This document shows positions 9,843 to 31,250 of a stretch of 64,000 nucleotides of DNA, piece after piece. Every line of letters starts with the position of its first letter. Within the stretch, counting starts at the first letter, position 1. Position numbers and translations under genes: made by a program. Under the pieces are notes generated by a model. It made no database searches. It saw nothing but the letters and a program-made list of their open reading frames with translations, and was not told the DNA's origin. The DNA is from an uncultured Desulfuromonas sp. (GTDB taxonomy: Bacteria; Desulfobacterota; Desulfuromonadia; Desulfuromonadales; Desulfuromonadaceae): positions 1,054,001-1,118,000 of the forward strand of contig NZ_OY787469.1 of assembly GCF_963678835.1 (NCBI RefSeq), written 5' to 3'.

Positions 9843-9911
9843 AGTTTTTACCCGTGGAGCAAGTCTCCACGCGATTGTTCACATATCACCCCCGCTTTTC
9901 AGGAGGACACT

Positions 9912-11273: not shown

Positions 11274-11284
11274 GCGATCTCGCT

Positions 11285-11613: not shown

Positions 11614-11704
11614 AATAGGGGGTAAGGCAACAAAAAAGACAACGAGAGCTGTTGTTTTGAACGCTATGCGAAAGACATGACCATTACCGCAAAGGAGAAA
11701 ATGT

Positions 11705-14684: not shown

Positions 14685-14714
14685 GGGGATTCGCGGCTGA
14701 AGCCGCTCCTACAA
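14685..14714. repeat. REP-like palindromic sequence
   Basis: GGGGATTCGCGGCTGAAGCCGC followed by TCCTACAA contains the imperfect palindrome GCGGCTGAAGCCGC. It closely resembles the REP sequences common in Pseudomonas, which RAYT transposases are thought to spread. Only one copy was noticed in this window. Confidence 0.55.
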
Positions 14715-14838
14715 TGTATAATTTCAACTATGCCGACGTCCTAGCCCGAATTTCTCACCAATAAATAGAATAAGGCTGTATTTCGTGGCATAAATGTAGT
14801 GAGACCAATCACTTACATAGCGCGAAAGGAACAGCCTT

Positions 14839-16224: not shown

Positions 16225-16386
16225 GGCCAAGGGGAATAGTCAGACAAAATCAAGAGGAGAAAAAAACGAAACCTGGGAGAGGTGCGCCTTTTTTCATAAA
16301 CATATTGCTCAACGCCGACCCATTTGAGTCATTGATGGAGACTGCATTCCACAGGAAGAGCCAATTTGACTATTGGACAGAACAAT

Positions 16387-16414
16387 AGGCGTGATTTTCG
16401 CGAAAATCACGCCT
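16387..16414. terminator. perfect 28-bp palindrome near the right end of the IS1380 element
   Basis: AGGCGTGATTTTCG is immediately followed by its reverse complement. It lies between the transposase stop and the right inverted repeat. It may block read-through from outside; no T-run follows on the plus strand. Confidence 0.5.
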
Positions 16415-16444
16415 CAAAAAACAGTGGTGAGAAATTCGGGCTAG

Positions 16445-16572
16445 CAGGATGTTGAAAAGTTTCGTCTGGGGATTTTTCAACGACGCAAGCCGGAAATGTG
16501 ATTTCCGTCTTGCTCACAAAATCAAGTGCTTGAAAACATGTCCTTGATTTTGATCGCCCGTCCATCGGCTCT
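16445..16572 (+). repeat. MITE-like element, copy A (right end degenerate)
   Basis: Starts CAGGATGTTGAAAAG next to CTAG and carries the family core: AAGCCGGAAATG, GATTTCCGTCTTGC, AAAATCAAGTGCTTGAAAAC, TCGCCCGTCCAT. Beyond GGCTC the expected end is lost. The IS1380 element sits directly against its left edge. Confidence 0.75.
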
Positions 16573-16768
16573 AGCAGGCGACTGAGAGTAAAAGCAACCC
16601 TGCCGGAATTCTCAGATTTATCCTGAAATGATGATGTTTAAAGCGGTACCCTTTTCAGAGGGGAGTGATGGATTTTAGGCCTGCGGCGAATGGCTTTATG
16701 GTGGCAAAAAAACAACGGCCATTTTTTTGTCGGGCCATATGATTTTGTTTGCCGAATGAGAGAAGGGA
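16573..16768. other. gap before the AraC gene
   Basis: About 200 bases with no convincing gene. A loose hairpin with T- and A-runs near 16705-16735 might act as the terminator of the minus-strand AraC gene. Confidence 0.3.
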
Positions 16769-17566
16769 TTACTGGTACTGCGCTACATTATGAGCCTGTG
16801 CTGGAGTGTAAAGGGAAAACTCCTTGAACTCATTGATGAAATGGGCCTGATCGTAATAACCCGCTTCTAAGGCCAGATCCGCAAAGTTTAGATGATGTGC
16901 CTGTGAGCGAAGGTTGTTGAAACAGCGTTGAAAGCGGACGATGCGTAAAAAGAGTTTCGGTGCAATACCGACATGTTTTTTGAAACTGCTGTTGATGTAG
17001 CGTGTTGAATAGCCCGTTTCCTCTGCAAGTTCCTGAATACGGATATCTCCATTGCATTCATTGATTTTTTTCAAAATATAATTAACCAACGCCGGAGAAG
17101 AAAGTTGTTTTTCCATTTTGCAGTGGAACTGTTCAAACAGTTGCACTCTTTCTTCGAAGGAGCCCGCAGAGCAAATCTTTTCTGCCAGACCATCGGCTTT
17201 TTTCTGGACATCACTCAGGGTAATTTCTTTTTCGGTGAATTGATCCAACGGACAATTCAATAGCAGGTTCGCCTTTCCGGGATAAAAGCGTGCCCCGAAA
17301 TAGAGGTTGCCTTTTGCAAATTCAACCCTCTTGCCTTTCTTGACCGAGCCGCAGACCAAGGCCTGAGGCTTTGAGGAAGAGCAATGGAAGAGGATGTCAA
17401 TACTGCCGTCAGGAACAGCTACAACAGATTCTTTGGCATCGGGAGAGATGACAAAACTGTAATACTGGGCAAGCTGCTGCCGGGCTGAAGCCAGCCGTGA
17501 TTCGTAATTTTCTGTTGTCAGTTCGAAAAAAGGCTGTGCGGGTCGATAGTTTATCACATTGCTCAT
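16769..17566 (-). CDS. AraC-family transcriptional regulator
   Basis: 265 residues. The C-terminal third has two helix-turn-helix motifs, IQELAEETGYSTRYINSSFK and FADLALEAGYYDQAHFINEF, diagnostic of AraC/XylS. The N-terminal part resembles the effector domain of small AraC regulators that contain a VVAVPDGSIDILFH-type stretch. The ATG at 17566 was chosen because GGAGG lies just upstream; an ATG twelve bases earlier lacks such a site. It is divergent from the permease gene across a 450-base gap, and so is the likely regulator of that transport and catabolic cluster. Confidence 0.88.
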   Translation of the reverse strand: MSNVINYRPAQPFFELTTENYESRLASARQQLAQYYSFVISPDAKESVVAVPDGSIDILFHCSSSKPQALVCGSVKKGKRVEFAKGNLYFGARFYPGKANLLLNCPLDQFTEKEITLSDVQKKADGLAEKICSAGSFEERVQLFEQFHCKMEKQLSSPALVNYILKKINECNGDIRIQELAEETGYSTRYINSSFKKHVGIAPKLFLRIVRFQRCFNNLRSQAHHLNFADLALEAGYYDQAHFINEFKEFSLYTPAQAHNVAQYQ

Positions 17567-18017
17567 AGAGGCCTCCATCGTGCTCTTTGAACCCTGTAAA
17601 GCAATATTTGTACCCGTTTTTCAGCATGTTAGGCAACTGTCTGATTCTACAGGCATTCCGTGGAAGGCTGAACTCTCGCGACGCGTCGGTGATGGTCTGT
17701 TGTGCTTAGGATTTATTCGGCCTGTGATTATTTTTTGAACAAAAGAGATTGACGGCCGCAGCTCTTTTGAAGATTCTTCGTCTTAGCGCCAAAGACTGTT
17801 CCGTTTTTTCCAATACTCAGATTCCTATCCGTATTTCAATGTCAGGCAAAAATCGGGATTCAACGACCAGAGTCCCGCTTTTGAACCTAGGATAACGTTA
17901 GGTTCATTGCACAGAACAGACGAATGCTGCGTCAATGACCTGGACTGCAGTTGCTCCGCAAAGGTGCGGTAAGTCAAGCGATATAAATTGATCTTATTCA
18001 CCTTTGAGGAGCAGAGT
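17567..18017. promoter_or_regulatory. divergent intergenic region, AraC gene / permease operon
   Basis: 450 bases with no gene. It must carry promoters for both directions. A TGGACT-N4-TTGC sequence near 17942 resembles a -24/-12 promoter but is one base too short between elements. No operator could be assigned with confidence. Confidence 0.4.
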
Positions 18018-19523
18018 ATGGAACTTAAAAAGTATCTAGAAAACGGTGTCGTGGGTTTTCCTACGGCATTGGCCAGTACGGTTGGTCTGATTATGGCCAG
18101 TCCGGTTATCCTTACCGTAACCACCGGTTTCAGTCTTGGTGGTGCAACCTTTGTGATTGCTGTTCTTATCGCCCTGGTCATGTTGCTCTGTCAATCAATG
18201 ACCTTCTCTGAAGCTGCGGCCATATTGCCGACATCGGGTTCTGTTTACGATTATATCTCGTGCGGATTGGGGCGTTTCTTTGGCATTACCGGCACGATTA
18301 CCGCCTATGTTCTGGTGCACGCCTTTGCCGGAACCGCGGAAACGATCCTCAGTGGTATCATGGCCACTGTAAACTTCGACGCTCTCCACAGTACGCTGGA
18401 AGAGACCGGAACGGCCTGGATGGTCGGAGTCGGTCTGGTCATTATCTTTGCTCTGCTCAATATGATTGGGATTACCTGCTTCAGCAGGGCTGAAATCATT
18501 CTGACCTTCGGCATGTTTACGACTCTGCTTATATTTGGTCTGACTGGTTTATTTCAGGCTCCTCAGGTTGAACTCGACGGTTTCTTCGGAAGCTCTCAGG
18601 TCGGCACGGATCTGAACGCCGTACTGTCTTTTATTGGTATGGCCATGTTTATGTTTGTCGGGGCCGAGTTTGTCACGCCCTTAGCTCCTGAGTTAAAAAA
18701 TTCAGCGCGTAATATCCCTAAAGCCATGTTTGTTGGTTTGTCCGCCGTGTGTACCTGCATGCTTATTTATGGGACAGCACTGAGTCGGCAAGTCGTAAAC
18801 ATCGCTCTTGATCCAGAAGGAACGATTCACCTGCTGGAAACTCCCAATGCGATTCCGGTCTTTGCCGATCAGGTGATGGGGCCTTTCGGTAAGGTCTGGA
18901 TCGGAATCGGATTTCTGTTTGCCGGTGCCGCAACCATCAATACCCTGATGGCCGGGCTGCCACGGATTCTTTACGGAATGGCTGTTGATGGGGCCCTGCC
19001 GAAATGTTTTGCTTATCTCCACCCACGTTTTAAATCTCCTATTTTCGGTATCCTGTTTGCGGCTCTGATTCCGTGTGGTCACGCGTGGTATCTGAAGGGG
19101 GATCTCGATCAGATTCTGCATTTGATTCTGGCCGCAGTCTGTTCTTGGGGCGTGGCCTATTTGCTGGTGACCTTGTCGGTGGTCATGCTGCGCATCAGGC
19201 GACCGGATCTGCCGAGAGCTTACCGTTCCCCTTTGTTTCCGATTCCTCAGATTATCTCTTCTGTCGGTATTATTATCGCCATCTGGTATATCGCTCCTCC
19301 GGGAATGGATTCGATGGATGTCTATGTTCCCTTCGGCGCCATGCTCGGCTTGACTGCTTTGTACGCGCTGATTTGGACTGTGTTTGTCCAGAAGGTTAAT
19401 CCCTTCAAGCCGGTTTCTGTTGAGTTGTTGCTCGAAGAAGAATTCAGCAGAGCCGGCATCCATATTGTCGATTTGGAAGATACTGATGATCGCGATTTCG
19501 ATAATGCCTGTGAAGCTGCTTAA
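18018..19523 (+). CDS. APC-family amino acid/amine permease
   Basis: 501 residues with about 12 membrane segments. The N-terminal VVGFPTALASTVGLIMASPV and the FVGAEFVTPLAPELKNSARN segment after helix 6 are typical of amino-acid/polyamine/organocation carriers. ATG 18018 is preceded by GAGGAG at seven bases; upstream in-frame codons lack such a site. The C-terminal tail is acidic and overlaps the next gene. It probably imports the substrate degraded by the downstream cluster, an amino acid or amine whose identity is unknown. The divergent AraC gene is its likely regulator. Confidence 0.88.
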   Translation: MELKKYLENGVVGFPTALASTVGLIMASPVILTVTTGFSLGGATFVIAVLIALVMLLCQSMTFSEAAAILPTSGSVYDYISCGLGRFFGITGTITAYVLVHAFAGTAETILSGIMATVNFDALHSTLEETGTAWMVGVGLVIIFALLNMIGITCFSRAEIILTFGMFTTLLIFGLTGLFQAPQVELDGFFGSSQVGTDLNAVLSFIGMAMFMFVGAEFVTPLAPELKNSARNIPKAMFVGLSAVCTCMLIYGTALSRQVVNIALDPEGTIHLLETPNAIPVFADQVMGPFGKVWIGIGFLFAGAATINTLMAGLPRILYGMAVDGALPKCFAYLHPRFKSPIFGILFAALIPCGHAWYLKGDLDQILHLILAAVCSWGVAYLLVTLSVVMLRIRRPDLPRAYRSPLFPIPQIISSVGIIIAIWYIAPPGMDSMDVYVPFGAMLGLTALYALIWTVFVQKVNPFKPVSVELLLEEEFSRAGIHIVDLEDTDDRDFDNACEAA

Positions 19524-20109
19524 GACCTATTGGAATAAACAACCCTCCGGATACGTTGCAGGTTCGGTCCTGCAACGTATCGCCAAGGAGCTCGACGGAC
19601 GATTTAAAGTCGCTGGTCGCAACGGGAATTCCCTTCGTCTGATTGAAAAGGATGGTCGATTTTCCTGTTGTGTTGCGGAGCGGGTCGAAGCGCATTTTAT
19701 GATGCACATTGTGGCCACCCAATTGACCTTGGATATTCCGGCGCCGAAAAATCTCGACGTCATATTGAAGATCAACAATAGCGGCTGGTTTCGGAGAACC
19801 GGAATCCGTTGTCTGGCACCACGTCAAAAGCGAGAAGAATGGGCTGACTTATGCGCTGCTGTGGAGCAGGACAAAAATCTGCAGACAGCTCTGCATGCGC
19901 TGAATTTTCGTACCTGTCAGATTCGCGGGACTGAGAGCGGCTGGCAGGTTTTGATCGAACCCTTTGGTGGCAGTGAGGTCGTTAACCGACTGCCCTCATT
20001 TCGGCGCTATCTTCGCCTCGGGCACGAGCAAACCGATTCTCTGGTTCTTGGGCTGTTGAGTCTGAATCGAATTCTTTGTCAATTTAACGACAAAAGCCAG
20101 AACCGATAG
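19504..20109 (+). CDS. DUF3156-type protein coupled to the permease
   Basis: 201 residues starting at ATG 19504 (MPVKLLKTYW), overlapping the permease end by 20 bases. There is no signal peptide or membrane segment, so it should be cytoplasmic. The sequence is consistent with DUF3156, a family often found beside amino-acid permeases in proteobacteria; this assignment is from memory of the family and not certain. Overlap with the permease implies translational coupling and a joint role, perhaps in regulating transport or handling the substrate. No catalytic motif was recognised. Confidence 0.6.
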   Translation: MPVKLLKTYWNKQPSGYVAGSVLQRIAKELDGRFKVAGRNGNSLRLIEKDGRFSCCVAERVEAHFMMHIVATQLTLDIPAPKNLDVILKINNSGWFRRTGIRCLAPRQKREEWADLCAAVEQDKNLQTALHALNFRTCQIRGTESGWQVLIEPFGGSEVVNRLPSFRRYLRLGHEQTDSLVLGLLSLNRILCQFNDKSQNR

Positions 20110-20123
20110 CCGCATCAATCATA

Positions 20124-20168
20124 ACAGGTGCCGGCCGGACCATGGAGAGGTCGGCACCTGTTTTCCTT
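20124..20168 (+). terminator. intrinsic terminator after the DUF3156 gene
   Basis: CAGGTGCCG...CC pairs with GGTCGGCACCTG (20149-20160), followed by TTTTCCTTTC. Confidence 0.85.
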
Positions 20169-20311
20169 TCAGTTCGTGCCCTCTTGACCAATGAAGGTCA
20201 GAGCTATGGCTGAAGCAGAAACAAAATCTGTGATCAGTGTCGATCCGTTGTTTAACAGAGATGTTGCCAAAATGAACTCATGGTTATTTAAGCTACTTTT
20301 ATAAGGAGTAA

Positions 20312-21163
20312 ATGATGAAAAAACTGGTTGCAGGACTGAGTCTGGCACTGCTGTGTTTGTGCGCAACGAACGCCATGGCTGTTCTGGTTGATTTTTACGA
20401 CAATGCCCTGGCGCCGGATGGTGTTTATGGGTTGTTTTACGGAAATTACTATCATGCCGATGAGTTTACCGATAGTGATGGTGACAAGGCCGTCTCCGCT
20501 GATCTGACAGCGACGATTGCCATCGCCCGGATCGTTGGCTACAAAACCCTGGGTGGGTATCATTTTGCTTATCAGGCCATTCTTCCCTTTGGTGAAGTGA
20601 AAGAATCAAAATTGTTTGATGAAAGTTCGTCAGGTATTGGCGACTTAACCTTCGGGCCGGCGCTATTCCTCTATGCCGATGATCACAGTGGGACATATCT
20701 CTCCTATTGGTTCTACATCACAGCGCCAACAGGTGATTGGGATGACGATCGGGCGATCAACCTTGGGGGGCATCACTGGTATTTCCAGCATCAATTGGCG
20801 CTCACGACCGTGCTGGGAGATTTCGTCTATGACATGAATTTCAACTATTATCAGCACACCGAAGAGGATGACACCAAAACTGAAGCCCCGGATCGTTTTG
20901 AGCTCGAAGCCAGTCTCGGCTATCCCCTCACGGACAAGTTGATGATTGGTGTCAACGGCGGATTTTATCAAGATCTGGGCAAAGTCGAGGTCGCGGGGGT
21001 TAAACAGGCGGACAGTGCAGCCGAGCGTTGCCAATTTGGCCCCTCTGTCAGCTATGCCGTGACAGAGCGACTAGGTGTTAACCTGCGTTGGACCCACGAT
21101 GTTTATGCTGAAAATGACAGTAAGGGAGATGATGTCTGGTTGCGGCTGTCGTATGCCTTTTAG
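20312..21163 (+). CDS. outer-membrane beta-barrel protein, SphA/phenol-MetA-degradation-type
   Basis: 283 residues with a clear signal peptide (MKKLVAGLSLALLCLCATNA, cleavage after AMA). The mature part alternates short beta strands and ends WLRLSYAF with terminal Phe, as in outer-membrane barrels. Segments such as GIGDLTFGPALFLY and FVYDMNFNYYQHTEED resemble the transporter family found with catabolic gene clusters (Phenol_MetA_deg/SphA). AAGGAG precedes ATG 20312. It lies between the permease unit and the oxidoreductase operon, so it may admit the substrate across the outer membrane. Its TAG stop is immediately followed by MITE copy B. Confidence 0.78.
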   Translation: MMKKLVAGLSLALLCLCATNAMAVLVDFYDNALAPDGVYGLFYGNYYHADEFTDSDGDKAVSADLTATIAIARIVGYKTLGGYHFAYQAILPFGEVKESKLFDESSSGIGDLTFGPALFLYADDHSGTYLSYWFYITAPTGDWDDDRAINLGGHHWYFQHQLALTTVLGDFVYDMNFNYYQHTEEDDTKTEAPDRFELEASLGYPLTDKLMIGVNGGFYQDLGKVEVAGVKQADSAAERCQFGPSVSYAVTERLGVNLRWTHDVYAENDSKGDDVWLRLSYAF

Positions 21164-21314
21164 CCGGGGTTGAAAACGTCCCAGCCAGGGGCTTTTCAAC
21201 GGCGCACGCCGAAAATGCGATTTTCGTCTTGCGACCACAATCAAGGGCTTGAAAAACAGTCCTTGATTGTGGTCGCCCTTCCATGGGCTCCGCAGGCTGT
21301 TTTTCAGCAGACTG
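21164..21314 (+). repeat. MITE-like element, copy B (151 bp)
   Basis: CCGGGGTTGAAAACG at the left and TTTTTCAGCAGACTG at the right form degenerate terminal inverted repeats. Flanks are TTAG and TTCG, a target duplication with one change. The left TTAG contains the stop codon of the outer-membrane protein gene. The internal core matches the other copies (AAAATGCGATTTTCGTCTTGC, GGTCGCCC-TCCATGGGCTC). Confidence 0.8.
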
Positions 21315-21850
21315 TTCGTCTTTAATTTTTCATCAGGGTGCGGCCATTAAGGACGCACCCTGCACGTCACTCGTGCAGTAAAAAAATCCCTTTATTTCCG
21401 ATTTTTCCAATCTTAAATTTCAGTTGTAGCGTTAAATCAACCTTGTTCATACACGTTTTCCAGCAGTAGAAAAGTTCTGCTGAAAACGGCGTGACCCCGC
21501 TCGACGAAGAGCCGGTTCACTTTGCATCCCTTCTGCATCGTTATGCAGAAATCGACCCGCAATGGCGCGGCAAGAAACAAGCAGGATCAGTTCTTGTGCT
21601 TACACGCATGGCGGGAAACGTCTGAAAAAGACAGATACAACGCTTATCTGTCGTCAATCAAGTTCATCTGTTGTTTGACTCAAACCGATCTCTTCTTTTT
21701 TCACGATCCCCCCATGTGTACGTCTACACCTTAGACAATATTCCTGGACGTTAATTGTGCTCAGGGCATAAGAGCTGTCGGCAGCGAAAAACTTAACCAC
21801 AAAGCCTCTGGACAGGCTGCTAACAGTACTTTTCAGGAGACAGTTTGCTT
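21315..21850. other. 536-base leader region of the second catabolic operon
   Basis: No gene was found. It holds two adjoining hairpins (AGGGTGCG/CGCACCCT at 21335-21361 and CTGCACG/CGTGCAG at 21360-21378), an inverted repeat CGTTTTC-CAGCAG with CTGCTG-AAAACG at 21454-21487, and a TGCA triplet at 21523-21547. The promoter is probably here, but no standard -35/-10 or -24/-12 pair stood out. Confidence 0.5.
21523..21547. promoter_or_regulatory. possible fourth triple-TGCA site
   Basis: TGCA at 21523, 21534 and 21544, spacings 11 and 10. The first spacing equals that of the two best sites; the second does not. It lies about 300 bases before the first gene of the oxidoreductase operon, so membership in the same regulon is uncertain. 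Confidence 0.3.
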
Positions 21851-22249
21851 ATGAAACGGGTCAATTACTCATCGGGATCCCCTTTGGAAGAAATCGCCGG
21901 ATATTCGCGTATGGTCAAGATCGGCAATCAGGTCCATATCGGTGGTACCACAGCGGTTCAAAGAGACGGTTCTGTTTTTGGAACCACGGCTTACGATCAA
22001 TCCACGTATATCTTCACGCGCTTTATCGAACTGCTTGACCAAGCAGGAGCACGGGCTCAAGACGTCTACAAAGTCAAAGTATATGTCACCGATATGGCCC
22101 TGGCCAAGGAGGTCGCTGATGCCTATAGCGCGTTTTTCAAGGAAATTCGTCCTCTGTTTACCATGGTCGAAACCCCCAAACTCAATCGTCCAAGTCAGTT
22201 GGTTGAGATTGAGTTGGAAGCCATGATCGGCTGCGAATGTAACGCTTGA
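21851..22249 (+). CDS. Rid-family (YjgF/YER057c/UK114) protein lacking the usual catalytic arginine
   Basis: 132 residues; hallmark IGGTTAVQRDGSVFG and YKVKVYVTDM place it in the Rid family, whose RidA members hydrolyse reactive enamines/imines. Aligned by eye to E. coli RidA, the position of Arg105 is occupied by valine in LFTMVETPKLNRPSQLVEIE, so canonical deaminase activity is doubtful and it may belong to a Rid subgroup with another role. ATG 21851 lies ten bases after AGGAGA; a TTG at 21845 is an alternative. It is the first gene of the oxidoreductase operon. Imine products of the amine dehydrogenase encoded downstream are the natural suspects for its substrate. Confidence 0.8.
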   Translation: MKRVNYSSGSPLEEIAGYSRMVKIGNQVHIGGTTAVQRDGSVFGTTAYDQSTYIFTRFIELLDQAGARAQDVYKVKVYVTDMALAKEVADAYSAFFKEIRPLFTMVETPKLNRPSQLVEIELEAMIGCECNA

Positions 22250-22275
22250 TACGCATAAAGTAAGGAGAGATAACC

Positions 22276-23406
22276 ATGAGCCAAGTCGATTTTCTTTATT
22301 TGAGTGAGCAGGACATGATCAAAGCCGGTGTGACCGATATGCCGGGATGTGTCGATGCCATGGAGGAGATGTTCCGGTTGCTGAAAACCGGCGATTTTCG
22401 CATGGGTGGACCGGAAAGCAATTCTCATGGCGTTATGATGACTTTCCCGGAGAAGAGCTCTTTTCCCAATATGCCTGTTGACGGACCTGACAGGCGCTTC
22501 ATGGCGATGCCTGCCTATCTGGGAGGGCGTTTCGATATGGTCGGCATGAAATGGTACGGTTCCAACGTCGAGAACAAAAAGAAGAACCTGCCCCGTTCGG
22601 TGCTGATGCTGACTCTTAACTGCAAAGATACGGGTGTCCCGCTGGCTTACATGTCAGCCAATATTCTCAGTGCCTACCGGACTGGCGCGGTGCCGGGAGT
22701 CGGCATCCGTTATTTTGCCAGAACGGATGCCAAGGTCGTTGGCATTGTCGGTCCGGGTGTCATGAGTAAAACAGCACTCTCTTCGACTCTGGCCGTGCGC
22801 CCTGAAATCGAAAAGGTCAAGATCAATGGGCGCAGTAAGCATTCCATCGACAGCTTTATCGCCTATGTCAAGGAGAACCATCCCGGCATTCGCACCTTTG
22901 AAGTTGTCGACACGATCGAAGAGGCTGTACGTGGGGCTGATATTGTCCATATTGCCACCTCTTCACCAACCGGAGATGTCAACGAATATCCCTATGTCAA
23001 CGAGAAATGGATCAAACCGGGAGCCGTGATCTGTTGTCCGGCAGCGGCTCGTTTCGATGACGATTTTATCCTGAACAGAGCCCGTAATGTTGCTGACTAC
23101 CGCGGCCTTTATGAAGCCTGGGCCGAAGAAATGCCCTACCCGGCCTACCATATTATTCCGATCCCGGCGGTTCATTGCATGGACCTGATGGCTGATGGCC
23201 GGATGCAGCGCGATGACCTCATCGACCTCGGTGATATCCTGACCGGAGAAGTCCCGGCGCGCACCAGCGATGACGAAATTATTATTTACTCTGTTGGTGG
23301 CTTGCCCATTGAGGATGTGGCCTGGGGAACAGAAATTTATCGTAATGCCCTGGCCAAAGGAATTGGAACAAAGCTGAACCTGTGGGACACGCCATACCTG
23401 ACTTAA
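22276..23406 (+). CDS. ornithine cyclodeaminase / mu-crystallin family protein
   Basis: 376 residues, slightly longer than typical ornithine cyclodeaminase. The NAD-binding segment VVGIVGPGVMSKTALSS and the preceding SANILSAYRTGAVPGVG match the OCD/mu-crystallin fold. The aspartate region that carries out cyclodeamination in true OCD is replaced by CCPAAARFDDDF, so it is more likely a ketimine or imino-acid reductase, or a dehydrogenase of unknown substrate. AAGGAGAGAT precedes ATG 22276, 26 bases after the Rid gene. Its placement with a Rid protein and an amine dehydrogenase suggests all act on cyclic or linear imines. Confidence 0.82.
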   Translation: MSQVDFLYLSEQDMIKAGVTDMPGCVDAMEEMFRLLKTGDFRMGGPESNSHGVMMTFPEKSSFPNMPVDGPDRRFMAMPAYLGGRFDMVGMKWYGSNVENKKKNLPRSVLMLTLNCKDTGVPLAYMSANILSAYRTGAVPGVGIRYFARTDAKVVGIVGPGVMSKTALSSTLAVRPEIEKVKINGRSKHSIDSFIAYVKENHPGIRTFEVVDTIEEAVRGADIVHIATSSPTGDVNEYPYVNEKWIKPGAVICCPAAARFDDDFILNRARNVADYRGLYEAWAEEMPYPAYHIIPIPAVHCMDLMADGRMQRDDLIDLGDILTGEVPARTSDDEIIIYSVGGLPIEDVAWGTEIYRNALAKGIGTKLNLWDTPYLT

Positions 23407-23469
23407 TGTTAAGACGGAAGAACCGTTGGGGTAGGGTGGGCTTGTTCGGTTTATCGCAAGGAGTGTGAG

Positions 23470-23775
23470 ATGTTGAAAAGATTGCATGAAAACAGACCCG
23501 GAGTAGAACGTGTGACGATTACGTTCGAAGGTACGTCGTTAAAAGTCCCGGCAGGTGAAACTGTTGTCGCCGCAGTTATGGCCGCTGGGGCGGGCTATAA
23601 TCGAACCACGCCGATCAGCGGTGCGCATCGCACGGCCTACTGCCATATGGGTGTCTGCTTTGAATGTCTCATGGAGATTGACGGCGTTCCGAATCAGCAG
23701 GCCTGCACCATTCAGGTGCGTGATGGCATGGTGGTCAACCGACAACAGGGTGCGAAGGAACGAACCAATGGCTAA
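23470..23775 (+). CDS. small [2Fe-2S] subunit of a three-part amine/opine dehydrogenase (HcnA/LhpG-like)
   Basis: 101 residues with C58-x4-C63-x2-C66-x12-C79 (AYCHMGVCFECLMEIDG), the plant-type ferredoxin pattern of the small subunit found with HcnB/HcnC, opine oxidases and D-hydroxyproline dehydrogenases. It would carry electrons from the flavin subunits. CAAGGAG lies before ATG 23470. The end overlaps the start of the next gene by eight bases, indicating coupled expression of the complex. Confidence 0.85.
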   Translation: MLKRLHENRPGVERVTITFEGTSLKVPAGETVVAAVMAAGAGYNRTTPISGAHRTAYCHMGVCFECLMEIDGVPNQQACTIQVRDGMVVNRQQGAKERTNG

Positions 23776-25150
23776 GCACTACGACATGATTGTGATTGGT
23801 GCAGGGCCTGGTGGACTTGCCGCTGCGGTGACTGCAGATAAATTAGGACTCTCGACTCTTCTAGTTGATGAGCAGCCGGAACCGGGAGGGCAGATCTATC
23901 GGTCGATGGAGAGAAGCCTTCCCCAAAATGCTCATGTTCTTGGCAAGGACTATTTTGCCGGCAAGCCGCTTATTGAGTCATTTCGAGCCTCCAGTGCGAG
24001 CTATTTACCAAATACCAGCGTCTGGAATATCGACCATGCTTTCAATGTTGACGTGATATCCGAGGCGGGATCACAACGGGTGCGCGGGCAACAGCTCTTG
24101 TTTGCGGTAGGAGCCGTCGAGCGGCCAGTGCCGATTCCGAACTGGACCCTGCCGGGGGTGATGGGAGCCGCCGCTGCGGATATTCTGTTCAAGTCTTCAA
24201 ATATGGTCCCGCAAGGTCCGGTGATCCTGGCGGGAAGCGGTCCATTATTGTTACTGGCCGCCTGCCACCTGGTTGACAACGGGGTTGAAATTGCCGCCAT
24301 GGTCGAAACCGCCAGCCTTAAGGATTATTTCAAGGCAATGCCTTACCTGCCCGGTGCATTGCGGCGCAGCAGCTACCTGCTCAAAGGGTTACAGATGCGC
24401 CTGAAAGTACGTCGCGCCAGCGTACCATTGTACATCGGCTGTCGCGATCTGGGTGTGATCGGCACGGAGAAGGCCGAAGGGCTGCGTTTTACCTGCAGCG
24501 GCAAGTCATATGAAGTGTCTGCCGCAACGGTTTTACTGCATGAAGGGGTGGTCCCGAACCTGCGTCTCAGCCAGTTGCTCAACTGTGAGCATGAATGGTA
24601 CGAGCCGCAACACTACTGGCGGCCGGTACTGGATGGCTGGGGGCAAACCAGTGTGCCAGAGATTTCAATTGCCGGCGATTCCGGCGGTGTTGGCGGAGGA
24701 CTGCTGGCGGAAGCGGCTGGTCATCTTGCTGCGATCAATACCGCTTGCAAACTGCAGGTGATCACCGAAGCAAAGCGCGACCTTCTGGCGGCGCCCTACC
24801 AAAAAATCGTTCATCGAGAAAAGTTGATCCGTCCCTTTCTTGACCATGTTTTTCCACCAAACCCACAGGCGCTGGTGCCTCCTGATGACGCGACCCTTGT
24901 CTGTCGCTGTGAAGAATTGACCGCCGGTCAGATTCGTGAGGCGATTGCTCAGGGGGCACGCCATCCAGCCCAGATCAAAGGACAGACGAGATCCGGGATG
25001 GGGCCCTGCCAGGGACGTATGTGTGCAGCAACAATTGCTGAAATGATCGCAGCTAGCTGCTCTCTTGACATGCCCCAGGTTGGCACACTTCGGGTGAGAC
25101 CACCGTTGAAACCTTTGACCATCGAACAGATGGCACATCTGGAGTTATGA
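23768..25150 (+). CDS. FAD/NAD-dependent oxidoreductase with BFD-like [2Fe-2S] domain (HcnB/OoxA-like)
   Basis: 460 residues from ATG 23768. N-terminal dinucleotide motif IVIGAGPGGLAAAVTADKLG and DEQPEPGGQIYR; a second nucleotide site GPVILAGSGPLLLLAA; and a C-terminal BFD-type iron-sulphur domain with CRCEE near 378 and GMGPCQGRMC near 410-418. This architecture is that of the alpha subunit of hydrogen cyanide synthase, octopine/nopaline oxidase and hydroxyproline dehydrogenase. It overlaps the ferredoxin subunit gene by eight bases. It probably passes electrons from the substrate-oxidising subunit to the respiratory chain. The specific substrate cannot be read from the sequence. Confidence 0.87.
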   Translation: MAKHYDMIVIGAGPGGLAAAVTADKLGLSTLLVDEQPEPGGQIYRSMERSLPQNAHVLGKDYFAGKPLIESFRASSASYLPNTSVWNIDHAFNVDVISEAGSQRVRGQQLLFAVGAVERPVPIPNWTLPGVMGAAAADILFKSSNMVPQGPVILAGSGPLLLLAACHLVDNGVEIAAMVETASLKDYFKAMPYLPGALRRSSYLLKGLQMRLKVRRASVPLYIGCRDLGVIGTEKAEGLRFTCSGKSYEVSAATVLLHEGVVPNLRLSQLLNCEHEWYEPQHYWRPVLDGWGQTSVPEISIAGDSGGVGGGLLAEAAGHLAAINTACKLQVITEAKRDLLAAPYQKIVHREKLIRPFLDHVFPPNPQALVPPDDATLVCRCEELTAGQIREAIAQGARHPAQIKGQTRSGMGPCQGRMCAATIAEMIAASCSLDMPQVGTLRVRPPLKPLTIEQMAHLEL

Positions 25151-25199
25151 GGGCAAAAGTGAGGCGTGTGCCAATACTGTTGGCAGAAATCGAGGCAAT

Positions 25200-26327
25200 A
25201 TGAAGACAAATGCAGACGTAGTCATCATTGGAGGCGGAATTATCGGTTGTTCGACCGCCTACTATTTAGCGAAAAAAGGGAAAACAGTCATCGTTCTGGA
25301 GAAAGGAAGGGTGATTGGCTATGGCGGATCAAGCCGCAATGGTGGCGGGGTACGCCAGTCTGGTCGGGACAAAAGAGAACTGCCGCTGGCAATGTATGGT
25401 GTTCAAAACCTCTGGCCACATCTTTCCGAAGAGCTGGAAACGGATGTGGAATATTACCAGCAAGGGAATCTGCGGCTGGGAAAAACCGAAGAACATCTCA
25501 AGATTCTTAAGGGTCTTACTGCCACTGCCGTTTCTTTGGGACTTGATGTGAAAATGATCAACGGTGAAGAAGTCAGAGCGATCTGCCCGCACTTGTCCGA
25601 TGACGTGATCGGGGCCAGCTGGTGTCAGAGTGATGGCCATGCCAACCCCCTGCAGACAACAATGGCCTTTTATAACAAAGCTCGCCGGCTGGGAGTCTGT
25701 TTTCGTACCGGCCAGGATGTGCTTTCGATAAAAACAGTTGCGGGCCGGGCGAGAAAGGTCATCACCGGTAGTGGGGAGTTTGAAGCCGAAAAAATTATTC
25801 TGGCGGCAGGCTATGAAAGCCGAGCTATCTCACAGAGTCTGGGTGTTGATGTGCCCATGAAAGCTATTGCTTTGGACACCTTGATCACTGAAGCACAGCC
25901 CCCCATGTTTTATCAGATGCTTGGCACGGCGATGGCTGATTTTTACGGTCACCAAACCACGCATGGTTCCTTTGTTTTTGGTGGCGGGTCTCCACTTGAC
26001 TCCGGCAGTATTGTCGGCGTTGGAGACCATCCTCCGGTGGCTGCTACTGGAGCAACCTGTAAAGGGATTCTGGGTTATATCCCTGCCCTCAAGCATGCCA
26101 AGGTGGTTCGCAGCTGGGTTGGTTTTATTGACTGGTGTGAGGATAAAGTCCCCGTGATCAGTCCCGTCGAAGAGGTTCCGGGATTGATCCTGGCCTGCGG
26201 ATTCTCCGGCCACGGTTTCGGAATTGCTCCTTCCGTCGGTACGGTACTGTCACAGTTGGCTTGCGACGAAAAGCCCTCCATTGATATCAGCGAACTTGAC
26301 TATAAGCGCTTCTCTGACCGGGATTAG
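25200..26327 (+). CDS. DAO-fold FAD oxidoreductase, substrate-oxidising subunit (HcnC/OoxB-like)
   Basis: 375 residues. FAD motif VVIIGGGIIGCSTAYYLAKKG at the start, SSRNGGGVRQSG after it and the C-terminal GLILACGFSGHGFGIAPSVG typical of the D-amino-acid/sarcosine/glycine oxidase superfamily. It should oxidise a secondary amine or amino acid to the imine, working with the two iron-sulphur subunits encoded just upstream. At 375 residues it is nearer the opine oxidase and sarcosine oxidase beta subunits than the longer HcnC. CGAGGC precedes ATG 25200. Confidence 0.86.
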   Translation: MKTNADVVIIGGGIIGCSTAYYLAKKGKTVIVLEKGRVIGYGGSSRNGGGVRQSGRDKRELPLAMYGVQNLWPHLSEELETDVEYYQQGNLRLGKTEEHLKILKGLTATAVSLGLDVKMINGEEVRAICPHLSDDVIGASWCQSDGHANPLQTTMAFYNKARRLGVCFRTGQDVLSIKTVAGRARKVITGSGEFEAEKIILAAGYESRAISQSLGVDVPMKAIALDTLITEAQPPMFYQMLGTAMADFYGHQTTHGSFVFGGGSPLDSGSIVGVGDHPPVAATGATCKGILGYIPALKHAKVVRSWVGFIDWCEDKVPVISPVEEVPGLILACGFSGHGFGIAPSVGTVLSQLACDEKPSIDISELDYKRFSDRD

Positions 26328-26410
26328 CCTGGTTCTGAACATGATCCGCCCAGATATGATTTTCGAGGGCGGGGGATTTTCCCATTTCTTTTCTAGTGAA
26401 GGATAAAACG

Positions 26411-27553
26411 ATGAACTTTATTTTTGATATCCCGTCGACTCTGCTTTTCGGTGAAGGGGAGAGCCGTAATGCCGGAAGGCTGCTCAAGGAGATGGGGGCC
26501 CGCAAGGTCCTGCTGGTCTGCGATCAGGTTATGTCTTCTTTGGGCTTTGCCGAACGCATTCGAAACAGTTTTGTCGAAGCTGGTCTTGACTACGCGATCT
26601 TTTCAGAAGTTACTCCGAACCCGACCGACACTCTGGTCCATGCCGCAGCGGTCTTCGCTGCGGAGCATCAGGTCGATTCTTTGGTGGCTATTGGTGGCGG
26701 CAGTATTATCGACACCGCTAAAGCGATTAATATCCTGCTGACTAACGGTGGTGAAATTGCTGCTTATGAGGGGGTTCACAAAGTCACTAAGCCCACCTTG
26801 CCGCTGGTGATGATTCCGACCACCGCTGGAACCGGGAGTGAGGTAACGGCGGTCACCGTTGTCACCGATACAAAGCGGCACAAAAAGATGGTTATTGCCG
26901 GTCGCTTTGTCGGTGGGGCACTGGCCATTTGCGATCCATTGCTGACCGCAGACCTGCCTCCGGCCATCACTGCGGCAACCGGAATGGATGCTCTGACCCA
27001 CGCCATTGAGGCGTATATCTCGAAGCTGGCATCACCTGTTAGCGATAGCCACGCCCTCAAAGCAATTGATCTGATCAACACCAGTTTGGAAGAAGTGGGC
27101 TGTAACGGTAACAAAAAGGCCCGCAGTAACCTGATGCTCGGTAGTACGATGGCTGGTATGGCGTTTAATTCGGCCATGCTTGGTTTGGTCCATTCCCTGG
27201 CCCATCCATTAAGCGCTCATTACAACATCGCCCACGGTGTCGCCAATGCGGTCTTTCTGCCCCAAGTCATGCGTTATAACCTGGGCAGTTTCGATCATAA
27301 ACTTGACGATTTGGCTGAGGCTTTGGGGATTGACCGGCACCAACCCGATTTGGGCGAACAGGTTGTCCGCCGTCTGGAGACACTTTCGCGTGCTATCGGT
27401 ATCCCTAAATTCAAAGACCTGAATGTACCGGTAGCCGACTTTGCCATGTTGGCTGAGGAAGCCATGGTTGAAATAAGTACCATGTCCAATCCCAAGCAAG
27501 CAACGGTTGCTGATCTGGTACACATACTCGAATCAACATACGCTGAAGCCTGA
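26411..27553 (+). CDS. iron-containing (group III) alcohol dehydrogenase
   Basis: 380 residues. Shows GGGSIIDTAKAINILL, the PTTAGTGSEVT phosphate-binding stretch and the metal site region GMDALTHAIEAYIS followed by HSLAHPLSAHYNIAHG. Members reduce aldehydes or oxidise primary alcohols with NAD(P). AAGGA lies before ATG 26411; an upstream GTG at 26396 coincides with that site and is unlikely to be the start. It would dispose of an aldehyde fragment released by the amine dehydrogenase, or recycle NADH; this is inference from position. Confidence 0.88.
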   Translation: MNFIFDIPSTLLFGEGESRNAGRLLKEMGARKVLLVCDQVMSSLGFAERIRNSFVEAGLDYAIFSEVTPNPTDTLVHAAAVFAAEHQVDSLVAIGGGSIIDTAKAINILLTNGGEIAAYEGVHKVTKPTLPLVMIPTTAGTGSEVTAVTVVTDTKRHKKMVIAGRFVGGALAICDPLLTADLPPAITAATGMDALTHAIEAYISKLASPVSDSHALKAIDLINTSLEEVGCNGNKKARSNLMLGSTMAGMAFNSAMLGLVHSLAHPLSAHYNIAHGVANAVFLPQVMRYNLGSFDHKLDDLAEALGIDRHQPDLGEQVVRRLETLSRAIGIPKFKDLNVPVADFAMLAEEAMVEISTMSNPKQATVADLVHILESTYAEA

Positions 27554-27590
27554 TTCAACGTCTGAAAAAAGCTGAACCGAGGTAGGGATA

Positions 27591-30500
27591 ATGAGTTTTA
27601 CAGAGGAACGCGTCATGATGGAGCAGGTTGAGAAGGCCATTGCTAACAACCTCAAGACAGCCAAAAGCAACCTTGTCTGGCTGCGGGAGCAGATGCATCC
27701 CTATTTTTTTATAACCATGCGTCAGGAACCTGAGGCTATCGGTATTCTGGCGACGATTCTGGACAGTCTGAAAACAAACAAATACCGCATCTTGGCAGAT
27801 ACCGACAAAAAATTGATTCTGGCCAGTCTCAGCCGTCCCGGGACGCTCTATGAGTCATTGCGAAGCTTGCGGGAACGCGATATCTCTTTTGCCCATATCA
27901 CTCAGTCGTATGCTCCTATTCCAGGGGGCGATAAGATGTTGGAGATCCAACGCTTTGAGTTTGAGCGCAAATCAGATCAATGCGTTTGCGAGGGGCTTCA
28001 GCAGAATCTCGATATTCCTGCTGAAATCCGTGAGCCCATTCTGCAGGCTCTGAAACATAACTATCCTCACTTTGATTTTGATGATTTTGACGACTGTTTA
28101 AAGATGTTGTGGATCAACAAACAGGACTATGTTGAGCATTCTCCGGCCATACGGGTCGCACAGATCCTCTGGCTTTATCATCAGGGTAAGGAGAACGGTG
28201 GTATTCACCTGGATGTCGAAGAATCCGCCGGTCACGATACGGAGACAGAAACCCGTATCATGTTTGCTGTCAGTAATCCGCCCCAGCGCGATTTTCTCCA
28301 ACAGATCATGGAAGTCTTCAAGCGTATGGGGATCGGCATCAAACGTACTTATTGCCTGACCATCAGTAATGGTCGCCATCCGGTTTTTCTCGGAACTTTT
28401 TATGTGCGTAAAAGGGACGTTGATCTGACAGACAATCAAACGGAACAGTTTGTCGAGCTTCAGAAGGAGCTGTTCAATACCCAGTTGCTGCAGACCCGCT
28501 CACTAAGCTACCAGGAGTTTGTTACCCAGAACGTTATGAGCGGTGAAGATGCCTCCCTGGTGAACGCCTTTATCGCCTTCTGCCATACCAATCTGGCACA
28601 TAGCGCGGACCGTTACGATCTGGAGGGGGTTGAGCGCGCCTTTTACTCACACCCTGATCTTTGTTTGCAATTGGTCCAGCTGTTTCGGACCCGCTTTGAT
28701 CCGAACCTGACGGACCGCGAGGGTGTTTATCAAAAACAACTCGCTGATCTGGAATATGCCATAGAACATTACAACACTGGCCATAAGCGGGTTGATGCCT
28801 ACCGCAGGACGATTTTTTACTGTTGCCTGCTGTTTGTCCGCCATAGCTTGAAAACCAATTTCTTCGTCTTGAAAAAGCAGGCTCTGGCATTCCGCCTTGA
28901 TCCGGCTTATCTGGAAGAGCTGGCCATATGTTTTACGAACGATTTGCCTGTAGATCGTCCCTTCAGGGTGACGTTCTTCTTTGGACGTTACGGAGTCGGG
29001 TACCATATGGGGTTTTCTGATATCGCTCGCGGTGGCTGGCGGACCTTGATCACCCATGGCCGTGATGATTATGTTACCTGTGCGAATACGATCTTTAAAG
29101 AAGCCTATGTTCTTGCTCATACCCAGCATCTGAAAAATAAGGACATTTACGAAGGGGGCTCCAAACTGGTGGCCGTACTTGATGCTCTGCCGGTCAGCGA
29201 TCAGCAACTGGTCCAACAGCGTCTCTACAATCTGCAGTATGGATTTGCCAGTGCCTTTCTGGATATCTTCTGCAGTAACGAGGATGGCAGCATCAAGGAT
29301 TCCAGGGTCGTCGACTACTATGGGGAAGAGGAAGCCATCGAACTGGGACCGGACGAGAACATGCATGACATCATGATTGAGTCCCTTGCCCGCCTCGCGC
29401 AGAAACGCGGCTACATGCTCGGCATCGGGATCATGTCCGGGAAAAAGGTCGGCATTAATCATAAGGAGTTTGGGGTCACATCTGCCGGCGTGGTCAAGTT
29501 TGCCGAAGTAACCATGGAGCAGCTCGATATTAATTATCGTCAGGATGAATTCTTTGTGAAAATGACGGGGGGACCGGCTGGGGATGTCGCCGGTAATGCC
29601 ATGCGTCTTCTGTTGGATCATTGCCCGAACGTTCGAATTAATCTGATACTGGACGGAAGCGGTGCCTTTTACGATCCACAAGGGGCAGATCGAGACGAGA
29701 TTTCCAGAATTTTGCTGGCCAGGGATATCGAGGCTTATAACCCGGAAAAACTGCATCCTGGCGGCTATCTGATCTATCGAGGTCAACGGCGCAAGGAGGG
29801 ACTGAAAGAGCTGTACCGAAAAGTGGTTAAAACCGCTTTCGGTGTTGAAGAACAGTGGCTTTCCGCCGATGAATTTTACAGCGATTTCAACCGTCTGCCA
29901 TTTACAGTCAAGGCCGATCTGTTTATCCCGGGCGGGGGACGGCCGGAAACCATTGATGGTGAAAACTGGCGTCACTTTTTTATGGCAGATGGCTCTCCGT
30001 CGGCACGGGCCATTATTGAGGGCGCGAATTCATTCATCACCCCCGAAGCACGCATTGAACTGCAGCGGAAGGGGATTGTCGTTATGCGCGATTCCTCAGC
30101 CAACAAGTGCGGCGTGATCTCCTCGTCTTATGAGATTATTGCCAATCTTGTCATGAGTGAAGAAGAGTTTATCGAGCACAAACAGGCCTATGTCGCAGAT
30201 GTTCTGAATATTCTTGAACAGCGGGCCGAAGACGAAGTTAAGCTTATTTTTAAACGCTACCAGGAGGCTGGGGGGCATACGTTATATACCGAAATCAGTA
30301 ATGACATCAGCCATGAAATCAATCAGCAATATGCGACAATGTTTGAATATTTCAGAAAAAATCCCGACCTCTGTGCAGACCCTCTTTTCCAGCAGGCTAT
30401 TTTCAGCCATTTGCCGACGTTCCTAAAAGAAAATGCGACATATCGTGAACGGATTAAAGATCTTCCGATCAAGTATCGTTATGCGATTCTTGCCGTCGAG

Positions 30501-30596
30501 ATTGCAACGTCGATGGTTTACCATGCTGATATGGAAAGAGATGTCTTGTGGCTGCTGAAAGGACATTTGAGCCGACTTTATAATCGAGCCGCTTAA
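27591..30596 (+). CDS. large NAD-specific glutamate dehydrogenase (115-kDa class), copy 2
   Basis: 1001 residues (993 if ATG 27615, preceded by AGAGGA, is used). It is collinear with copy 1 (4254-7295) and has the same motifs, including GFSDIARGGWRTL, NKDIYEGGSKLVAVL, KKVGINHKEFGVTS, GGPAGDVAGNAM and IEGANSFITPEAR. It converts glutamate to 2-oxoglutarate and ammonia. It is the last gene of the oxidoreductase operon, 37 bases after the alcohol dehydrogenase gene. Its presence implies that the substrate pathway ends in glutamate, or that transamination through glutamate removes its nitrogen. Confidence 0.92.
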   Translation: MSFTEERVMMEQVEKAIANNLKTAKSNLVWLREQMHPYFFITMRQEPEAIGILATILDSLKTNKYRILADTDKKLILASLSRPGTLYESLRSLRERDISFAHITQSYAPIPGGDKMLEIQRFEFERKSDQCVCEGLQQNLDIPAEIREPILQALKHNYPHFDFDDFDDCLKMLWINKQDYVEHSPAIRVAQILWLYHQGKENGGIHLDVEESAGHDTETETRIMFAVSNPPQRDFLQQIMEVFKRMGIGIKRTYCLTISNGRHPVFLGTFYVRKRDVDLTDNQTEQFVELQKELFNTQLLQTRSLSYQEFVTQNVMSGEDASLVNAFIAFCHTNLAHSADRYDLEGVERAFYSHPDLCLQLVQLFRTRFDPNLTDREGVYQKQLADLEYAIEHYNTGHKRVDAYRRTIFYCCLLFVRHSLKTNFFVLKKQALAFRLDPAYLEELAICFTNDLPVDRPFRVTFFFGRYGVGYHMGFSDIARGGWRTLITHGRDDYVTCANTIFKEAYVLAHTQHLKNKDIYEGGSKLVAVLDALPVSDQQLVQQRLYNLQYGFASAFLDIFCSNEDGSIKDSRVVDYYGEEEAIELGPDENMHDIMIESLARLAQKRGYMLGIGIMSGKKVGINHKEFGVTSAGVVKFAEVTMEQLDINYRQDEFFVKMTGGPAGDVAGNAMRLLLDHCPNVRINLILDGSGAFYDPQGADRDEISRILLARDIEAYNPEKLHPGGYLIYRGQRRKEGLKELYRKVVKTAFGVEEQWLSADEFYSDFNRLPFTVKADLFIPGGGRPETIDGENWRHFFMADGSPSARAIIEGANSFITPEARIELQRKGIVVMRDSSANKCGVISSSYEIIANLVMSEEEFIEHKQAYVADVLNILEQRAEDEVKLIFKRYQEAGGHTLYTEISNDISHEINQQYATMFEYFRKNPDLCADPLFQQAIFSHLPTFLKENATYRERIKDLPIKYRYAILAVEIATSMVYHADMERDVLWLLKGHLSRLYNRAA

Positions 30597-30626
30597 AATA
30601 GTATTGTGCAATCTGTTTAGGGCAAT

Positions 30627-30677
30627 AAAGAGCCAGCCCTTGGTTCTATGAGGCCTGAACTCAGGAACGCTCTTTTT
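30627..30677 (+). terminator. probable terminator after the second catabolic operon
   Basis: AAAGAGC pairs with GCTCTTT at the base of a longer structure containing CCTGA/TCAGG, and the right arm runs into TTTTT. The loop is long, so the call is moderate. Confidence 0.5.
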
Positions 30678-30702
30678 AACGTTGAAAAGGGCAAAAGATA
30701 TT

Positions 30703-30813
30703 CAGGCCGTTGAAACGTCCCATTCAGGGACGTTTCAACGGCGCAAACCGAAAATGCGATTTCCGCCTTTCTTACAAAATCAAGCACTTGAAAACCTGTT
30801 GTTCAACAGTCTG
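30703..30813 (+). repeat. MITE-like element, copy C (111 bp, internally deleted)
   Basis: Starts CAGGCCGTTGAAACGTCC and ends GTTCAACAGTCTG. It keeps CGAAAATGCGATTTCCG and AAAATCAAGCACTTGAAAAC but lacks the roughly 40 bases with the GGACGGGCGA block. No clear target duplication is left. Confidence 0.7.
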
Positions 30814-31250
30814 AGATAGTGTCACCCGTTTTGAGAGCAGTGCTCAGTGACAATACCTTTTGGCATTCGACCGTCAATTGTTTCGTCAAGATCCCCTCTT
30901 TGGTAAAGAGGGTGGCTCGTGCTCTGACAACACGAAATCTTCGGGTCCGGCTTCGCCTCGCACCCTTCCCACTGCGTTGCAACATCTTGAAGTGGAGTGG
31001 CCACTTCGGCGATTTCGCGCCTTGTGTGAATGGCACGATGCAGTGCCATTCACTCGAATTTTTAGCATGGACAGAGCACTGGGTGTGTCGATTGAAGAAT
31101 CGTATACGTTTGACCAAATGACTTAAAGGCAATTTTAGCCGAACTGAGACCAGTATTTTATAACGACAAAGCATATCAGACTTCTGTGTACGGCGATGTT
31201 TTGCTGCCGTTCGGCAATTATGGTGTAAACTGTATCGGAATGGAACGCTT
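30814..31250. other. 437-base stretch without a supportable gene
   Basis: Several short frames overlap on both strands but none has a start site or recognisable product. It contains an 11-bp perfect inverted repeat, GTGAATGGCAC and GTGCCATTCAC, at 31026-31053 with a six-base loop, followed shortly by ATTTTT. Confidence 0.45.

Follow-up and report, generated by a model that had tools for sequence, protein, structure and literature searches.

A genomic island in an uncultured Desulfuromonas joins a TynB-type protein to a three-subunit dehydrogenase: a candidate oxygen-free route for aromatic monoamines

An island-borne gene cluster for amine catabolism

We analyzed a stretch of 64,000 nucleotides from an uncultured Desulfuromonas sp. 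(RefSeq assembly GCF_963678835.1, contig NZ_OY787469.1, positions 1,054,001 to 1,118,000), referred to below as the window, and in particular a gene cluster carried on a genomic island of 16.5 kb (approximately 14365-30875). With moderate confidence, we assign to this island the import of an aromatic monoamine of the tyramine or phenylethylamine class and its oxidative deamination without oxygen. On the best reading, the single D-amino acid oxidase-like (DAO) oxidase of known clusters has been replaced here by a dehydrogenase made up of a ferredoxin (Fer2), a BFD-domain flavoprotein and a DAO subunit. Two separate lines of evidence, the family of an ornithine cyclodeaminase/mu-crystallin (OCD) protein and a transporter pair, point in the same direction, toward monoamines.

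A preliminary description of the window, made from the sequence alone, had proposed a complete but unassigned amine and amino acid catabolic cluster. All of the genes that it named are present in intact frames, with families recognized by Pfam and NCBIfam, and a cluster for amine catabolism that includes a three-subunit dehydrogenase is borne out. However, "complete" is too strong a word, as there is more than one candidate for the enzyme that oxidizes the aldehyde of the pathway, and "unassigned" does not hold for an OCD protein that belongs to a named family, with relatives of 55-60% identity found beside DAO and, mostly, Rid, AraC and APC genes, or for a permease/DUF3156 pair that occurs in the vicinity of monoamine or arylacetate genes.

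The cluster begins with a gene for an AraC-type regulator (HTH_18 and DUF6597 by Pfam/NCBIfam search; 16769-17578) on the minus strand; all the genes that follow are on the plus strand. These encode an APC-family permease (AA_permease_2 by Pfam; about 18018-19523), a putative amine carrier, and its partner, a DUF3156 protein (PF11354, 134 bits; about 19504-20109); an outer-membrane protein of the Phenol_MetA_deg family (PF13557, 153 bits; 20312-21163), predicted to be a channel; a Rid-family protein (Ribonuc_L-PSP, PF01042; 21845-22249); an OCD_Mu_crystall protein of the TynB type, "tyramine oxidase subunit B" (NF004848, 599 bits; 22276-23406); a small [2Fe-2S] ferredoxin subunit (Fer2_4 and four cysteines; 23470-23775), an FAD- and [2Fe-2S]-containing BFD flavoprotein subunit (Pyr_redox_2, Fer2_BFD and SO_alpha_A3; 23768-25150) and a DAO-type flavoprotein subunit, predicted to be catalytic (PF01266; 25200-26327); an iron-containing alcohol dehydrogenase (Fe-ADH; PF00465; 26414-27553), which scores below cut-off in each of the 16 listed NCBIfam families; and a large NAD-type glutamate dehydrogenase (GDH; PF00208 and PF05088; 27591-30596). 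A second GDH of the window (4254-7295, outside the island) is 52% identical to this one, each having about 1000 residues.

Since the genes from Rid to GDH lie on the same strand at distances of only -8 to 86 bp (26, 63, -8, 49, 86 and 37 bp in order), they are likely to form one operon, and its main promoter may lie in the 681-bp gap upstream of Rid. Pattern scans found no excess of sigma-70 promoter-like sites (15 against 13.6 expected, standard deviation 3.3), terminator-like sites (22 against 16.0 expected, standard deviation 4.5) or sigma-54 sites (34 against 45 expected), and Rfam gave no match to a regulatory RNA across positions 9000-36000 of the window.

The OCD protein belongs to the TynB type

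The OCD protein matches NF004848 over residues 3-375 with 599.1 bits, far above the cut-off of 362. A plasmid search returned 33 records, 23 of them at 54-60% identity, and 15 of these 23 are annotated as "tyramine oxidase subunit B". We opened 16 of the 33 loci, of which 14 carry an OCD of the 55-60% type and two (L008 and L019) one of about 40%. A DAO homolog lies just downstream of the OCD gene in all 14 loci of the closer type, and a Rid gene is annotated between the two in 12; an unannotated Rid match in L011 raises this number to at least 13, while L013 has a broken OCD gene and no visible Rid. Neither DAO nor Rid accompanies the OCD of L008 and L019, and none of the 16 opened loci has a Fer2 match. 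Many of the opened TynB loci have an AraC regulator and an APC permease nearby. NF004848 also has a match in Corynebacterium glutamicum, one of a control set of 14 known genomes.

The window thus resembles the TynB-Rid-DAO clusters of Acinetobacter, Shinella, Pantoea, Klebsiella and Rhodobacterales plasmids in having OCD, Rid and DAO genes in one run, with AraC and APC genes near and an OCD of 55-60% identity. It differs from them in that Fer2 and BFD genes stand between OCD and DAO, where the plasmid clusters have a single DAO gene after OCD and Rid; in that Rid precedes OCD; and in its additional DUF3156, outer-membrane protein, Fe-ADH and GDH genes. Moreover, the permeases of the plasmid clusters, where matched, are only 22-26% identical to that of the window. 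The set of TynB-type OCD, Rid, DAO, AraC and APC genes is therefore already known, and so homologs with the same genes do exist in part, but the three-subunit enzyme is new within this set.

The preliminary description had taken two features of these proteins as signs of an unusual pathway. It noted that the OCD protein lacks the expected catalytic aspartate context, and indeed, in our alignment with the alanine dehydrogenase 1omo, the aspartate motif of that enzyme faces a gap. The same is true, however, of the other TynB-type rows aligned, and an acidic residue near the lost motif (Asp261 here) is retained in all 13 of these rows (11 aspartate, 2 glutamate). Likewise, the Rid protein has no arginine at the position where 2dyy has one, as had been observed, but 3i7t, its best relative in the PDB, also lacks it. 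As relatives share both absences, neither is peculiar to this organism.

The permease and DUF3156 pair accompanies monoamine and arylacetate genes

In the window, the APC permease is followed by DUF3156, and this arrangement recurs: 14 plasmids encode permeases of 58-69% identity to it, and those that were opened are APC-DUF3156 pairs. Testing the contexts of eight of these 14 loci with tblastn, we found one or more markers of monoamine or arylacetate metabolism near the permease in all eight. A FeaB-like aldehyde dehydrogenase (ALDH) was matched in six (44% in L105, 45% in L110, 82% in L113, 62% in L114, 45% in L115, and L108, the source of the query). FeaR was identified in L105 (424.6 bits, cut-off 199), hpaABC in L107 and the genes from hpaR to hpaA in L114; L106 has a MoaF-domain protein, and L108 has both atsBA and a "monoamine regulon" regulator.

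Enterobacterial monoamine clusters (K. aerogenes, Salmonella, Pantoea and Erwinia) combine FeaB or Hpa genes with a PuuB-like DAO, an APC permease and DUF3156, and those of K. aerogenes, Salmonella and Pantoea also have a cupin. As in the window, DUF3156 follows an APC permease, here of 59-65% identity; unlike the window, the opened stretches list no OCD in their annotation and have no Fer2 or BFD, and the DAO proteins of L107 and L108 are only 23-24% identical to the DAO subunit described here. The AraC regulator is 32-35% identical to AraC proteins beside TynB clusters (L006, L012 and L109) and, to the same degree, to that of the K. variicola amine cluster (L106).

In one further genome (G198; locus L111, 3457-9895), homologs of Rid (53%), the permease (35%) and GDH (53%) lie together with a DUF3156 gene, and with neither an OCD nor the dehydrogenase, showing that this set occurs apart from the OCD module. 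Between Rid and the permease of that locus is a gene that, by eye, we take to be UspA, which gives the order Rid-UspA-permease-GDH-DUF3156.

A three-subunit dehydrogenase and its relatives in another class of the phylum

The Fer2, BFD and DAO genes adjoin one another, FAD folds are present, and the [2Fe-2S] cysteines are intact (58, 63, 66 and 79 in Fer2; 379, 381, 414 and 419 in BFD). The fold of the DAO subunit is nearest to sarcosine oxidase beta and to 1y56_B, and its best sequence match in the PDB is 1y56_B, titled L-proline dehydrogenase. With heterotetrameric sarcosine oxidase and the P. horikoshii enzyme 1y56, the dehydrogenase of the window shares the DAO fold and the BFD and A3 domains of the flavoprotein. 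The latter has 460 residues and aligns to positions 166-596 of the 996-position SoxA alpha model (TIGR01372), where it reaches 81 bits (cut-off 1164).

Outside the genus, the order OCD-Fer2-BFD-DAO recurs in a genome of another class of the phylum (G145), at 38, 47, 41 and 36% identity, respectively. In that class, nine of 257 genomes match NF004848 at E <= 1e-70, seven of them above the cut-off, giving ten loci. The order is conserved in nine of the ten, with a cupin gene adjoining DAO; the cupin of L142 is partial and on the opposite strand, that of L143 is cut, and L144, at a contig end, leaves the order unclear. The block of Desulfofustis and its kin (L062/L138, which are the same contig, L010 and L136-L143) accordingly has these four genes arranged as in the window, at 33-41% identity (45-52% for Fer2), but with a cupin instead of Rid and, unlike the window, with Xsc, a Tpa-like aminotransferase and Ald adjoining in at least five loci. 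All three are present in L010, L137, L138, L139 and L140, Xsc is present in part at L141, and none is found at L136, while the stretches of L142, L143 and L144 are too short to judge. The Xsc and Ald proteins of L010 pass their models, at 914 bits (cut-off 676) and 496 bits (cut-off 392); the aminotransferase, at 482 bits, falls just below the NF005812 cut-off of 488 and is called Tpa-like by its position. The TynB-type OCD and the three-subunit dehydrogenase are thus a conserved module that is found in two metabolic settings.

The OCD-Fer2-BFD-DAO-cupin run beside Xsc, Tpa-like and Ald genes in L010, L062 and L137-L140 may itself be a cluster for the degradation of a taurine derivative such as tauropine or N-methyltaurine. 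The taurine dehydrogenase TauXY, of which TauX is a Rid-like protein, is likewise an amine dehydrogenase feeding an aldehyde pathway, but it has two subunits. Excerpts of one report describe Tpa/Ald and TauXY as alternative routes to sulfoacetaldehyde and, for TauXY, mention coupling to cytochrome c and name neither Fer2/BFD nor OCD (PMC5320631). A possible further link between OCD proteins and sulfonates is R. capsulatus rcc02113, "ornithine cyclodeaminase-1", for which an excerpt of another report gives a 129-fold induction on isethionate (PMC11423573).

A scan of genome contigs with a BFD alignment returned at least 80 loci, in at least seven of which an OCD gene precedes Fer2-BFD; seven is a lower bound, as some loci end at contig edges. 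Besides L062, these comprise six with a different OCD lineage (23-25% identity) before Fer2-BFD-DAO: L029, in which the OCD is a single frame with an N-terminal extension, L032, L041, L069, L078 and L080. Their hosts are methane-oxidizers, an Arenicellales bacterium, another gammaproteobacterium and Pleurocapsa. A DAO tree placed the window DAO within the single-DAO clade (99/91), but we discarded it, as long branches were flagged as meeting; matches below 60 bits (including all from L107 and L108) and the L010 DAO had been left out, and frames of more than 520 residues had been trimmed to the last 440.

A model for oxygen-free monoamine oxidation

In the proposed pathway, whose substrate, electron route and roles for OCD, Rid, Fe-ADH and GDH we infer from the genes, the amine would enter through the outer-membrane channel and the APC-DUF3156 pair. 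The DAO flavin would take two electrons from it and pass them, via the FAD and two [2Fe-2S] centers, to a respiratory acceptor other than oxygen. Rid and the TynB-type OCD might handle the resulting imine or an amino acid adduct, and GDH the nitrogen, while the arylacetaldehyde could be reduced by Fe-ADH or oxidized by an ALDH or an aldehyde:ferredoxin oxidoreductase (AFOR) encoded elsewhere. The genome encodes two AFOR proteins and two PaaK-like ligases (639 and 585 bits, below the cut-off of 646), the latter beside genes that, by eye, we take to be IorAB; metabolism at the level of arylacetates is therefore plausible. BamA has no match over cut-off in this genome, so that ring degradation by the BamA route is improbable here; together with the AFOR proteins and the PaaK-like ligases, this suggests that arylacetates may be the end product or may enter metabolism as CoA esters.

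Several observations weigh against this model, the missing BamA among them. The island contains no ALDH, and the one nearby outside it is named for aminobutyraldehyde. We traced no source paper behind the name of NF004848. Among the permease loci, L110 and L115 are the weakest, having only a 45% FeaB-like match and an aminotransferase; an aminotransferase also lies near this permease type in L106, the FeaB-like matches of 44-45% in L105, L110 and L115 may be general ALDHs, and the L105 permease is unannotated, with matches in two frames. As the FeaB and MoaF queries were taken from L108 and L106, these two loci count their own matches. Finally, the relatives with the same OCD-Fer2-BFD-DAO order adjoin taurine genes wherever the stretch is long enough, except in L136, so that the substrate cannot be read from the module.

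Alternative functions

A possible, if rather unlikely, alternative is an opine shunt, in which the OCD protein would use NAD(P)H to couple an amine to a 2-oxo acid, the DAO dehydrogenase, being of the sarcosine or opine oxidase type, would split the resulting N-substituted amino acid into an aldehyde and an amino acid, and GDH (here) or alanine dehydrogenase (in the sister clusters) would restore the 2-oxo acid and free ammonia. We consider it because of the match of OCD to SbnB, the GDH gene in the operon and Ald in the sister clusters. In sequence searches of the PDB, the OCD protein matches SbnB best (1.5e-31 for the single sequence; 3.8e-72 for a seven-row profile, five rows of which come from the 23-25% lineage), and the titles of the SbnB structures name 2-oxoglutarate and an N-substituted glutamate, N-(1-amino-1-carboxyl-2-ethyl)-glutamic acid. 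Lys92 and Arg135 are invariant in 17 of 17 rows (13 TynB-type and four of the distant lineage) while the aspartate motif of alanine dehydrogenases and cyclodeaminases is lost. The DAO subunit is nearest to sarcosine oxidase beta and L-proline dehydrogenase, whose substrates are secondary amines, and an amino acid dehydrogenase adjoins the block here (GDH) and in five sister loci (Ald), and lies near the 42% OCD of L008. On the other hand, the 13 annotated aerobic loci that were opened list no amino acid dehydrogenase adjoining the OCD-DAO run. SbnB, the closest solved relative by sequence (26-30% identity), serves siderophore biosynthesis, and the OCD protein reaches only 168.9 bits in the SbnB equivalog TIGR03944 (cut-off 326.9). 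Nor did a fold comparison (VIA-align) of the predicted model (mean pLDDT 76) single out SbnB, which tied with alanine dehydrogenase and pyrroline-2-carboxylate reductase.

Slightly less likely still is the broader proposal that primary amines in general are degraded through an opine shunt built from TynB-type OCD proteins and DAO enzymes, with a DAO oxidase in aerobes and Fer2/BFD/DAO in anaerobes. Were this so, the organism of the window would use aromatic monoamines without oxygen, and in bacteria of the Desulfofustis type the module would break down adducts of taurine, for example tauropine, which occurs as an opine in marine invertebrates, by way of the aminotransferase, Ald and Xsc. An opine may thus be an intermediate here, or a taurine opine the substrate of the sister clusters.

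It is improbable that the substrate is an aliphatic or other amine of the putrescine/gamma-aminobutyrate type, degraded with the help of two upstream ALDHs (9912-11273 and 11705-13138). The second, on the plus strand and only 3.6 kb from the AraC gene, scores 653 bits in the aminobutyraldehyde dehydrogenase model NF010000 (cut-off 615), and the first is nearest to succinate semialdehyde dehydrogenases, below cut-off. Yet NF010000 is a broad subfamily model, both genes lie outside the island, which makes the second a possible partner only, and the relatives of the permease and the OCD protein point to monoamines.

Free opines or derivatives of proline or hydroxyproline, which the preliminary description had proposed, are more improbable again. 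Three-subunit enzymes of this build do act on such compounds, and L-proline dehydrogenase 1y56_B is the best PDB sequence match of the DAO subunit; but the NCBIfam D-proline dehydrogenase model gives 36 bits (cut-off 600), the other listed equivalogs also stay below their cut-offs, and the gene context is that of monoamine clusters. No model specific for opine oxidase or HcnABC is among the NCBIfam matches, which is no test of these enzymes. Taurine or a taurine derivative, probably the substrate of the sister clusters, where the same gene order lies beside Xsc, Tpa-like and Ald genes (L010, L137-L140 and partly L141), is very improbable here, as Xsc-type taurine dissimilation has to be rejected for a genome without Xsc (best two matches 26% and 28%), and as OCD, BFD and DAO share no more than 33-41% identity with their counterparts in the sister clusters (the partial L144 aside) whereas OCD is up to 60% identical to the tyramine-labelled type.

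We return to aromatic monoamines, the substrates favored by our reading. The best-known bacterial tyramine oxidation requires oxygen: according to excerpts of one paper, E. coli TynA, which acts on phenylethylamine and tyramine under the control of the AraC-type FeaR, is an oxygen-using copper oxidase that is not expressed anaerobically (PMC4640556). If our assignment is correct, an anaerobe has gained an oxygen-free route for these amines as one block of foreign DNA; the unexplained TynB-type OCD and DUF3156 would each obtain a function; and OCD-Fer2-BFD-DAO would be a module shared with another class of the phylum, several members of which keep taurine genes beside it. Titles and the first lines of abstracts, in a literature from which subscription journals were mostly outside the scope, held no description of NF004848, of TynB together with a three-subunit dehydrogenase or of DUF3156 in amine uptake.

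The island and its surroundings

The cluster lies on an insertion of about 16.5 kb (14,365-30,875) that separates ssb from a chemoreceptor gene, since blastn against the congener G008 (L160) joins window position 14364 directly to 30876. The genes of the preliminary description are all inside this island, which is somewhat wider than the region that it had outlined. It is missing from three congeners (G002, G007 and G008), in which the distance from ssb to RNase J is 2.8 kb as against 19.4 kb here, and the edges in G002 and G007 agree with those in G008 within a few hundred bases. In G009, this distance is 13.9 kb, with no blastn match to the island.

Local alignment of the island ends revealed imperfect terminal inverted repeats (left, 14364-14398, plus strand; right, 30843-30878, minus strand), with a score of 41, whereas 500 alignments with one end shuffled by single bases reached 31 at most, and the repeat core occurs in the window only at these two ends (2 found, 0.00 expected). 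By Pfam and repeat search, an insertion sequence with inverted ends of its own (14741-16444, plus strand; transposase 14839-16224, PF13701) is nested within. The GC content per kb is 45-54% in the island (57% in one kb) and mostly 52-60% in the neighborhood, but as low-GC stretches also occur outside (47.5% at 31-32 kb, 49% at 54-58 kb), this contrast is weak support for a foreign origin. Among 58 genomes of the relative set, the OCD gene is present in this genome alone (E <= 1e-60), and among 395 genomes drawn from the phylum in two, this one included (E <= 1e-80).

Just outside the island, some 160 bp beside the chemoreceptor gene (30918-31078) are also missing in G008. Upstream of ssb, the region 268-13138, which has no match in the stretches fetched upstream of ssb from G002 and G008, encodes an NhaC-type antiporter, a GDH, GAPDH, HemL, the two ALDHs and a sigma-54 regulator that is nearest to PrdR (397 bits, cut-off 795). 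We rejected the ALDH at 11705 as a core gene of the genus, its best relatives being at most 40% identical and, within the E-value limit, found in seven of 13 genomes.

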